DNA from: Pezizomycotina sp. ARF18
Taxonomy: Eukaryota; Ascomycota
DNA: 64,000 nucleotides
Direction of reading: 5' to 3'
Assembly: GCA_002224055.1 (NCBI GenBank)
Contig: AZLU01000079.1
Location: 46,756 to 110,755, forward strand
This document shows positions 21,317 to 41,966 of the stretch, in pieces; position 1 is the stretch's first letter, and the number at the start of each line of letters is the position of its first letter. A program made the translations under genes and the position numbers. A model generated the notes under the pieces. It did no database searches, was not told the DNA's origin, and saw only the letters and a list, made by a program, of their open reading frames with translations.

Positions 21317-24300
21317 ATGCCTACGATAACACCTCAACAATTAGTAGCTCTGCAGCACAACACCGAAAAGATTCGAAATGTAAGTTTTTACCAGTTCCGT
21401 CGATTGTTCCGGATATCTCTGCGTGCAGCTCCGAAAGGAAAAGCACCATGGCGAAATTGTATTCCAAAGTGTTTCGTCGCAAACTCTTTTGCCAGATCAT
21501 TTCCATATATACTGTTCTTATATCTTGAAATCAATAGGTCTAACTATTTCTCGATTCGTAGATATGTATTCTTGCGCACGTTGTAAGTTCCAGTCGCCAG
21601 TTTTTTAAGCTCTCGGGGAAGCTTCGGAAAACAGCTAGCTACCTTCTTTAAAATAAAAAGAAAAAATTTGCAATTGCAAGCCCTAACCTATCATTTGTTT
21701 TTTCCTCAGGACCATGGGAAAAACCAGTCTCAGCGATTGCCTGCTCGCCTCGAACGGGATCATCTCCCCAAAGCTGGCAGGCAAGGTTCGCTTTCTCGAC
21801 TCGCGGCCGGATGAGCAGATCCGCGGCATTACGATGGAGTCCAGCGCCATATCCCTACATTACCGCGCATTGAAGCCGCCTACGATTCCCGGCGGTGAAC
21901 CTACAACGGAGGAGTTTTTGATAAACTTGATCGATTCGCCGGGCCACATTGATTTTTCCTCGGAGGTTTCGACGGCTTCGAGACTATGCGACGGCGCTGT
22001 AGTGCTTGTAGATGCTGTCGAGGGCGTATGCTCGCAGACGGTAACGGTCCTGCGCCAGACATGGATCGAGCGGATGAGACCCGTGCTAGTGATAAATAAG
22101 ATCGACCGACTCATAACAGAGCTCAAGCTCACGCCGCTGGAAGGTTATATCCATTTGTCAAAGCTCCTAGAGCAGGTCAACGCCATCATGGGTAGTTTTT
22201 TCGCGGGAGACAGAATGGAGGAGGACTTGAAGTGGAGAGAACACATCGAACAGAAGCAGCAGGCGAAGACGGCAAAGGCGCAGGCTGTAGCAGCTACGTC
22301 TGCGGCAGATGGTTCTGAAGGGATCGACGCCGAGAGCGTTTTCAGTAAAGAGAGCGAATATGAAGAGAAGGACGACGAGGACCTCTATTTCTCGCCGGAA
22401 AAATTCAACGTCGTTTTCGCCAGTGCAATAGACGGCTGGCTTTTACTGTCAAGGACTTTGCCGCCATTCACGAGAAGAAGCTAGGTGTTCGGAGAGATCT
22501 ATTAGAGAAGGTTCTATGGGGAGATTTCTACCTAGATCCGAAAACGAAGCGCGTCCTCCGCCAAAAACATCTCAAGGGCAAGAATTTGAAGCCGATGTTC
22601 GTTCAGTTTGCACTGGATAATATATGGGCGCTTTACGAGAATGTTCTCAAGAAGTATGTTTTCCACCGATACTTCCCACCATTAATTTATACCATGCTAA
22701 CCTATATCGATGATATTTTCCAACAGAGATCGTGACTTCGACAAAATAGAGAAGATAGTAAAAGCCCTTGGCTTGAAGGTCTTGCCTCGGGATCTCAAAT
22801 CCAAAGATACGCGTGCCCTCCTATCCACCATGTTTAGCCAATGGCTACCGCTCTCCGCGCCCTTCTCGGAACGGTAATACGGCAGCTGCCTTCTCCATCC
22901 GTGGCTCAAAGTCAGAGGATGGCAGGTCTCATCGCTACGGCTCCTGGAGGAGCAGAGAATATCTCCTCTGACGTCAAGACCGCTGTTGAAAAACCTCGAC
23001 GTCAACAGCGATACTGTAGTTGCATATGTTAGCAAATGATAGCCGTCCCCGAGAGCAACCTGCCGCGTAATCAACGTAAGCAACTTACTGCCGACGAGAT
23101 GAGGGAACTGGCAGGGTCAAGAGACAACAATTGGCAAGGGCACTGGCTGCTGCAGCCTCAGAGAACGGTGCTTCTGATCTCGAGAAGCCCGTAGATTCCA
23201 TGCCAGAAATGACTAAGTCGTTGGAAAGGCCACACTAACCGTCCCCGAGGACAACGCTGATAGCGGAACAAGCACTCCGCGAACTGGAGATGAAGCTGAA
23301 CCAGCAGATAAAGACAAAGAACATTTGATAGGTTTTGCAAGGTTATATAGTGGAACTATCCGAGTAGGGCAAACACTTTATGCCATTGGACCGAAATACA
23401 ATCCCGCCCACCCCTATGAACATATACCCCCTATTACGGTTACAGACCTGTACTTGATGATGGGCCGTGATCTTGTTCCGCTCGAGCAAGTGCCTGCAGG
23501 TAATGTATTTGGCATTGGAGGTCTAGAAGGCAAAGTGTTGAAGAATGGTACGCTCTGCAGTTCGCCTACTGGCGGTGTTAACCTGGCGGGAGTCTCGGGA
23601 ATGGGTGCCGCTCCTATCGTACGGGTTGCAGTCGAGCCAAAGAACCCAAGTGAGCTGAAGAAACTGATAGCCGGCCTGAAACTGCTTGAGCAAGCGGACC
23701 CCTGCGTGGAGTACAGAGTTCAAGATAACGGGGAACATGTTATTCTCACGGCTGGGGAACTGCATCTTGAGGTATGTTAATTACAATGAGAGCCCCGTTT
23801 CCGGTATTGCGCAATACTAATCTGAGCGAACTGCAGAGATGTTTGAAAGATCTTCATGAAAGATTTGCAAAAATAGAAATACAGGCTTCAAAACCCATCG
23901 TTCCCTACCGCGAGACTATATTTTCCGTGGCAGAAATGTCACCGCCGAAGGACCCAAAGTTACCTCGCGGAGTTGTCCAAACCTCCACGTCTTCAAAGCA
24001 CGTATCGTTCCGCATCAAGACCCGGCCTCTGCCGGCCGCAATGACAGAGTTTTTAATGGAAAACGAAGCAACAATCAAGAAGCTGTACTCTCAGCGGGTG
24101 GCGCAGGCACAGGCAGAGGGTGACTTAGACGAAGCCATTGCAGAAGAAGCCGCTAATATCGACATTGAGCTTGACCCTCTGGTCGAGCACGAGAAGTGCA
24201 TGTCTCTGGAAGATTTCAAAGACAAATTGCAGGAGACGCTGAGCAAAAACGTAACCAAGGATGAGCGTGAAGCGTTTAAAGGCGTTGTTGATAGGATCAC

Positions 24301-40690: not shown

Positions 40691-40698
40691 GTTGGCAG
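40691..40698 (+). repeat. left 8-bp target-site duplication of the hAT MITE
   Basis: GTTGGCAG directly abuts the left end of the MITE. It is identical to the copy at 40843-40850 and fits the nTnnnnAn target pattern known for Ac-like hAT elements. Confidence 0.85.
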
Positions 40699-40842
40699 CA
40701 GGGTATTTAGCGTGGGTAGCCTTGGCGGGTAGCCTGGGCATTTATTCCTCTCGGTAACCGAGTAAGTAGCTTCGGTAACGCTACAAAACCACTATCTTCT
40801 ATAACGACCTACCCGCCAAGGCTACCCACGCTAAATACCCTG
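40699..40842. mobile_element. 144-bp non-autonomous hAT-like MITE
   Basis: The element has 34-bp perfect terminal inverted repeats: 40699-40732 begins CAGGGTATTTAGCG and 40809-40842 ends CGCTAAATACCCTG. They enclose a 76-bp core. The ends match the hAT terminal pattern YARNG (CAGGG), and an 8-bp GTTGGCAG duplication flanks it. GGGTAGCC occurs twice near the left end, as expected of subterminal transposase-binding repeats. The core has a near-palindrome CTCGGTAACCGAG. It encodes no protein and would need a hAT transposase in trans. Perfect repeats and intact duplications suggest a fairly recent insertion. The right end overlaps the 3' end of the minus-strand gene at 40831-41966. Confidence 0.93.
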
Positions 40843-41966
40843 GTTGGCAGTGCGTGGCAAGATGGTGACAGCGCCAGGACCAATGTCATCGTTGAGATTA
40901 GCGGGATGATAATCGCCAACACGAGAACCGTCGTCCGAGAGGTCCGTGTAGATATCTTGTAGGAAACCTGAATTCAACACATAACGGCGGCAGTATTGAA
41001 CTGTGGCAGCTAGATGTTCAAAGTCTTGATTTCCAGTTTCGAGGACGAGAGTGAGTGTCGTCGTATCTGCAAGACCACGCGCGAGAGTTTTGAGATCTCT
41101 GGATCCGAATGTCTCAAAATCGACCTCGGGCAGTCCTAAGGGATCTTGATTGAATGTTAGCGAGATTAATCCGAGGCCAAAAGTCATATGTATTCCTTGT
41201 TGAGAAGGTTAACTTACCAAGATCTATAACAACGACGCGACCGTCATCCAAGGCGATAATATCCTGAATCTTGTTCAACTCCGCTTCAAAGAGCATGAAT
41301 TCAGAGTCGGCAACTCTATCTTCAGCGACGTTTGTAGACGAAGTGAAACGAGCTTGTGACAATCTATTGAAAGATTTATAAAGGTCGTTGGATGAGCTTC
41401 TCCGAGGAAGAGAAGTCTACCGTCAACTTGGAGAGCTGCAACCTGGATAAAGTCGGCATGAACAGCCCTGTTCAGATGAGGACTCAGGCTTTTCACGGAG
41501 CTCGCGTAGTTGATGATTTTGATGTACTCGTCTAAACACCGGGTCAGCAATTCTTAAAAAAATAAAAACAAAAGACAAGATATAAGAAACAGGAAGAAAA
41601 AGGACGTGGAGTCCAGTGAAGTCAAATGCCATCAACTTTGCAGCATCGTCGAGGAAGGACAGGGTGGTGTATATAGGAGACAAGCTTACTGTACGAGGGA
41701 TGGTTAAGATCCCAAACATCGATATCAAGGCGTTGGATGCCGTCTTCGATGGTTTTTTTATGGTTGGAGGCCAATGGCTCTCCAAATGGAGCTCCACCCA
41801 GGAGCGGCCATCTCAGTTTTTCAAGTTGAGGTCGAAATGAAAATAGGGATTGATAAAGGTGACTTGATGACTGTTGCTGATACTGTTGATAATGAGAGGG
41901 AGTAATCAAGACTAAGAAAAGAAGAGCGAATCTAATTTTATTTAGAAAGAAGATAAAAGAAAACAA
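40831..41966 (-). CDS. hypothetical protein with N-terminal hydrophobic segment
   Basis: The frame opens at 41966 with MFSFIFFLNKIRFALLFLVL, a likely signal peptide or anchor. It continues KLRWPLLGGAPFGEPLASNH, EDGIQRLDIDVWDLNHPS and LSFLDDAAKLMAFDFTGLHV. Further exons give DEYIKIINYASSVKSLSPHL, NRAVHADFIQVAALQVDGRL, RFTSSTNVAEDRVADSEFML and KIQDIIALDDGRVVVIDLG. A 73-nt intron (41145-41217) leads to GLPEVDFETFGSRDLKTLAR, TTTLTLVLETGNQDFEHLAA, TVQYCRRYVLNSGFLQDIYT and DDIGPGAVTILPRTANQGI. The final codons CAG GGT ATT TAG lie inside the right terminal repeat of the hAT MITE. Frame changes lie near 41385 and 41650. No family was recognised. A secreted or membrane protein is inferred only from the N-terminus. 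Confidence 0.55.
40843..40850 (+). repeat. right 8-bp target-site duplication of the hAT MITE
   Basis: GTTGGCAG is identical to 40691-40698 and directly follows the right terminal repeat. It lies inside the coding frame of the minus-strand gene. Confidence 0.85.

Follow-up and report, generated by a model that had tools for sequence, protein, structure and literature searches.

A 144-bp MITE family of hAT type and the long, degraded elements that share its ends in a fungus-like genome

The 144-bp element found in the window (the whole 64-kb stretch of DNA analysed here) is a genuine transposon and not a fold-back artefact. It is very probably a non-autonomous MITE of the hAT superfamily that was mobilised by a hAT transposase. 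Its assignment to the hAT type is based on 3 lines of evidence, namely, the 8-bp target site duplication, the sequence of the ends, and the linkage of such ends to transposase remnants elsewhere in the genome.

The element in the window and its copies

According to the coordinates in Table 1, the initial annotation was right in reporting perfect 34-bp terminal inverted repeats (TIRs), a 76-bp core, and a duplicated GTTGGCAG. The two TIRs of 34 nt are 100% complementary and lie 76 nt apart, the termini read CAGGG...CCCTG, and the 8-bp sequences flanking the element on both sides are identical. In addition to the TIRs, two small palindromes are present in the core, CTCGGTAACCGAG and GTAGC...GCTAC. 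When a 21-base piece of the TIR is searched with up to 3 mismatches, only the two TIR sites are found in the 64-kb window and none in 100 shuffles; the TIR pair is thus not a product of chance. DNA folding of the element yields z = −10.65 relative to the mean of 200 shuffles. As for coding potential, no open reading frame (ORF) of at least 100 aa lies wholly within the element, and two enter its ends. MITEs are generally shorter than ~600 bp, and the element has the features by which they are recognised: it is short, non-coding, bounded by TIRs, and found at a number of unrelated sites in related copies of defined length. The Rfam search over the whole window reported no match, and nothing in the phage collection matched the element. 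Regarding base composition, the 64 kb of the window contain 30 runs of A or T that are at least 15 bases long and 0 such runs of C or G.

Table 1. Coordinates of the element and its neighbouring ORF in the window, and of elements elsewhere in the genome that carry the same or related ends
Feature	Position	Strand	Length	Remarks
Left target site duplication GTTGGCAG	40691..40698	.	8 bp	from sequence
hAT-type MITE	40699..40842	+	144 bp	one of the 13 genome copies found
Left TIR	40699..40732	+	34 bp	from complementarity to right TIR
Direct repeat, first unit	40714-40726		13 bp	in left TIR
Direct repeat, second unit	40727-40739		13 bp	running into core
Core	40733..40808	.	76 bp	between the TIRs
Right TIR	40809..40842	-	34 bp	perfect complement of left TIR
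Right target site duplication GTTGGCAG	40843..40850	.	8 bp	from sequence
ORF	40831..41187	-	118 aa	enters right end of element by 12 bases, stops at TAG in TIR
Long element (L060)	C34:72921-76536		3616 bp	first 15-17 bases as in MITE; perfect 8-bp duplication
Long element (C233a)	C233:10854-14427		3574 bp	first 15-17 bases as in MITE; perfect 8-bp duplication
Long element (C233b)	C233:20268-23911		3644 bp	length includes N run; duplication not perfect
Long element (L067)	C178:25280-27968		2689 bp	30-bp perfect TIRs; first 15-17 bases as in MITE; perfect 8-bp duplication
Long element (L066)	C23:76104-79076		2973 bp	related end CAGACCATTTAGCGT, 2-edit pattern; perfect 8-bp duplication
Short element (L075)	C220:34276-34446		171 bp	these ends; perfect duplication GTAGTAAT; different core
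Element with doubled end (L072)	C2:415905-416650		522 bp (element)	perfect duplication AGCACTAG

The search of the genome covered 46,361,250 bases on 408 contigs (46.4 Mb) and revealed at least 13 MITE copies on 13 contigs, i.e., the window copy and 12 elsewhere. Searches seeded with the window copy and with another copy returned the same 13 places, and this number is a lower bound. Both ends are present in 11 of the 13 copies, the lengths of which vary from 127 to 144 bp, while L054 has no right end and L057 no left end. Ends of hAT elements begin with YARNG, and the earlier proposal that the element has ends of this type is confirmed by CAGGG starts in 9 of the 11 two-ended copies, the other 2 being L049 (CAGGC) and L053 (without the first bases).

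The same search had been suggested in the initial annotation as a way to find copies with differing 8-bp flanks, and such copies do exist. The 8-bp duplication is perfect in 8 of the 11 two-ended copies, and no two of these duplications are alike (GTTGGCAG, ATCCTACC, TGCAGCGG, GCCGACGC, CGTCTCAC, CATGTAGG, ATTGGCCT, and GCGCTAAT). Among the 3 imperfect cases, 6 of the 8 bases agree in L049, the duplication of L058 is recovered only if shifted, and L050 has none. The flanking DNA also differs from copy to copy: when the 800-bp flanks of 11 copies were compared with 360 kb, no match below 99.5% identity was detected, rows with at least 99.5% having been excluded as self-matches. The dispersed copies, their differing flanks, and their differing duplications argue against both a fold-back artefact and a segmental duplication.

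Long elements with the same ends and remnants of a hAT domain

The end pattern CAGGGYATTTAGCGTNGGTA, searched over the genome with 2 mismatches, gave 62 sites; the reversed pattern, run as a control, gave 2. The long elements were drawn from 42 of these 62 end-like sites and hence form an incomplete set, and the second end pattern (2 edits) was run only on loci pre-chosen for an end or domain match. The ends of the MITE, or related ones, bound five elements of 2.7-3.6 kb, 4 of which have a perfect 8-bp duplication. Among the elements with such ends other than the MITE copies, the 8-bp duplication is perfect in 6 out of 10, with C233b, C182, C68, and C19 being the exceptions. The short element on C220 possibly represents a second MITE family. 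On C2, the 522-bp element is followed after 224 bp by another end, identical in its initial 45 bases and in its flank, suggesting a tandem duplication.

In the genome, 9 matches to PF05699, the C-terminal hAT dimerisation domain, were found. All 9 are less than 1 kb away from an end of matching or variant sequence, and 8 of them are no more than 367 bp away (the distances, obtained by position subtraction, are 44, 46, 52, 75, 85, 224, 254, 367, and 991 bp); the ends of C23, C55, and C127 are variants, found by allowing up to 2 edits. The 14 control genomes contain 0 matches to PF05699, so they provide no positive control. The RNase-H-like core (PF14372) has 0 matches both here, where the long copies have decayed, and in the control genomes. 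C34 has NYLSIPATSAAVESQFSIASNIYTKQRNLLKSETFCQLMLLK as its C-terminal piece, a block that we take to resemble a hAT signature, and similar pieces adjoin ends at C127, C233 (two copies), C55, C23, C178, C157, C236, C333, and C209. Among these, the ends of C236 and C333, where remnants of the C-terminal block are present, show 1 difference from the MITE consensus over the initial 28 bases and 2 from the window copy.

The 8-bp duplications, the shared ends, and the PF05699 remnants beside them thus support the hAT assignment made from the window alone. As for the autonomous hAT with matching ends that had been suggested as a further check, long hAT elements do share the ends, but no intact transposase was found among them. 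According to the proposed mechanism, a hAT transposase supplied from another locus of the genome would bind the CAGGG...CCCTG ends, excise the element, and insert it into a new site, where repair of the staggered cut would double 8 bp of the target. The mobilising transposase may have been that of the long elements or of their close relatives; the long elements would have lost their activity to repeat-induced point mutation (RIP), which the MITE would have escaped owing to its length of 144 bp.

The Ac-type target pattern nTnnnnAn, which the initial annotation had recognised in the window site, does not extend to the family. Only 2 of the 14 perfect duplications fit it in full, GTTGGCAG being one of them, and the half-sites fit in 10 of 28 cases (p = 0.25); an Ac-type target preference of the family was therefore rejected. 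Comparison of the MITE core with four long elements returned nothing notable, and the ends alone match, which excludes a simple internal deletion of any of these four as the origin of the MITE. The core motif CTCGGTA (window 40750-40756) recurs 36-120 bp inside 6 of the 27 hAT-type ends examined, compared with a mean of 0.09 and a maximum of 2 in 2000 single-base shuffles, a test that overstates the signal because the motif was chosen post hoc and the ends share ancestry. CTCGGTA is possibly a transposase-binding motif and is given here as a lead only.

Base composition, age, and competing explanations

The GC content of the five long copies is 10-17%, and the four measured together with their flanks lie in DNA of 33-50% GC. 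The step at the element edge is sharp in C34, C233a, and C23, and weaker in C178, where the left flank has 25-32%. MITE copies, in comparison, have 49-55% GC. Other end-sharing elements also differ by length: GC equals 46%, 42%, and 41% for those of 171, 198, and 522 bp, respectively, versus 24% and 18% for those of 550 and 619 bp. All 7 measured two-ended elements of at least 550 bp that share these ends are AT-rich, with GC down to 10%. The single-ended sites are C91, C333, C236, C134, C86, and C2:3832. Two of them, C91 and C333, lack an extended AT-rich region close to the end and, if long, would not fit the rule that all long elements are AT-shredded. At both ends of C34, C233, C178, and C23, the outermost 50 bp have 46-54% GC, with lower values further inward.

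Among the remaining C in C178 and C23, 5% are found in CpA and 79% in CpT, compared with 25% and 29% in the window; owing to this CpA depletion and CpT excess, both elements are read as RIP-marked. The standard RIP indices show no elevation in the C34 type (TpA/ApT 1.04), and 125 of the 162 differences between C34 and C233a are transversions. Judged from the GC collapse only, the decay of this type would represent old, saturated RIP. RIP is the inferred cause of the loss of activity in the long elements.

According to the available text of PMC4522978, the repeats on which RIP typically acts exceed 400 bp, and ten MITE families shorter than 200 bp show no RIP bias in Mycosphaerella graminicola. 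Similarly, a MITE of Fusarium poae is placed below the RIP threshold in the available text of PMC4994206. Given the GC contrast by length and the published limit of ~400 bp, the MITE probably escaped RIP through its shortness of 144 bp, in a comparison that covers few elements with copy number uncontrolled.

Regarding age, the window copy shows 0 substitutions relative to L054 over the shared columns and 3.5-11.7% divergence from the remaining 11 copies. Two other pairs are also close, with 0 substitutions between L051 and L052 and 0.7% between L049 and L053. The open frames that contain the PF05699 matches are 54-96 aa long; stops fall within the match in 3 of the 9 (all TAA), and the other 6 are stop-free. 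Stop-to-stop frames of at least 120 aa are absent from C34, C233a, and C178, and those listed for C233b span N. No intact hAT transposase gene was found in the genome. The initial annotation had described the element as young and its transposase as recently active in this genome, which is only partly borne out: the identity with L054 agrees with this description, but the divergence from the 11 other copies and domain frames of at most 96 aa do not.

Some of the broken frames may originate from the assembly. An Mgm1-type dynamin gene in the window (~28240, minus strand) shifts frame within the dynamin domain at a place where the sequence has no gap; the profile is matched up to position 97 by one frame and from position 95 by the next. 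One of its frames scores 529.5 bits against "putative mitochondrial dynamin protein" (6rzt, presumably from a filamentous ascomycete) versus 394.9 bits against "MGM1" (6jsj, presumably from yeast). Together with introns, the size of the genome, and its RIP-like decay, this preference points to a filamentous ascomycete. In an EFL1-type GTPase frame (22440-22484, plus strand), matching ends abruptly after "SAIDGW". Reading by eye, we see this match continue in another frame and both breaks as bases lost in short runs, suggesting that bases are missing from the assembly. Gap runs also exceed substitutions relative to the consensus in 3 of the 13 MITE copies (6:3 in L053, 3:2 in L054, and 7:2 in L058), through either sequencing error or a genuine bias towards deletions. 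The broken hAT frames may thus partly reflect assembly error, which would hardly account for the GC collapse.

An assembly that seems not to be error-free, with a conserved window gene shifting frame without a gap, is also what could be held in favour of a fold-back artefact or a chance palindrome at a single site. This explanation is, however, hardly credible given 12 more copies on 12 other contigs with flanks of their own, and an own perfect duplication in 8 of the 11 two-ended copies. Duplications of 8 bp are not confined to hAT, and a MITE of another superfamily that produces them, such as P element or Merlin, would look similar at its flanks. Such an origin is very improbable, as the ends match those of elements bearing the hAT dimerisation domain, and 9 out of 9 PF05699 matches adjoin them. 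The ORF that enters the right end of the element is possibly a host exon struck by the insertion; it has no match in Pfam (E 0.001) or PDB (E 1). That the element supplies a stop codon or 3' end to a host gene is suggested by the minus-strand frame ending at TAG 12 bases into the element, but this seems improbable for a frame without Pfam or PDB match at a single insertion.

The MITE could also be still moving, with an intact transposase missed by the assembly or located at a contig end. The near-identical copy pairs (L051/L052, window/L054, and L049/L053), the 6 of 9 domain matches that are stop-free, and the assembly error that may explain some broken frames speak for this, as does the fragment C157:98180-98566, which runs off the contig end and has a GC content of 0.31, above that of the five long copies. 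We nevertheless consider continued movement rather unlikely, since the C157 fragment too shifts frame and has a stop, the open frames around the domain matches do not exceed 96 aa, and GC in the five long copies is as low as 10-17%. Returning to a MITE mobilised by a hAT transposase, we tentatively suggest that the family might outlive its own transposases as a RIP-invisible passenger, which a newcoming hAT with the CAGGGTATTTAGCGT end could remobilise.

Known systems and what the family adds

MITEs of hAT type, such as mar and BniHAT, are moved in trans and carry the 8-bp duplication typical of hAT. In the available texts, mar of Drosophila (PMC3517528) and BniHAT-1 and BniHAT-2 of Brassica nigra (PMC7385995) are also short hAT-superfamily elements, a likeness drawn from descriptions and not from compared sequences. 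The present family, however, differs from them in its host and in its low copy number (at least 13).

As for long elements, the available text on Fusarium poae (PMC4994206) gives lengths of 2.5-4.2 kb for hAT elements (RLT, Hornet, Tfo, Drifter, and others), versus 2.7-3.6 kb here, and inverted ends of 19-30 bp where stated, versus 30 bp in C178. Compared by description, the F. poae hAT families have at most one RIP-marked copy each in that text (PMC4994206), in contrast to the decay of the long copies here. The ~140-bp MITE of F. poae is similar in size to the 144-bp element but has 712 copies according to the same available text (PMC4994206), and the RIP-free MITEs of M. graminicola, shorter than 200 bp in the available text of PMC4522978, are likewise of similar size and under RIP length; both likenesses concern size, the sequences not having been compared. 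The 14-base starts of the TIR (T and C variants) are absent from the open-licence full-text papers searched. The MITE family appears to be new and is of well-known type.

The general picture is unchanged by this family, as MITEs under RIP length are already published (available texts of PMC4522978 and PMC4994206). The additions are one hAT MITE family from a fungus-like genome, the probable transposase relatives that accompany it there, and a comparison, on a small scale and inside a single genome, of RIP-like mutation on long versus short elements with shared ends.
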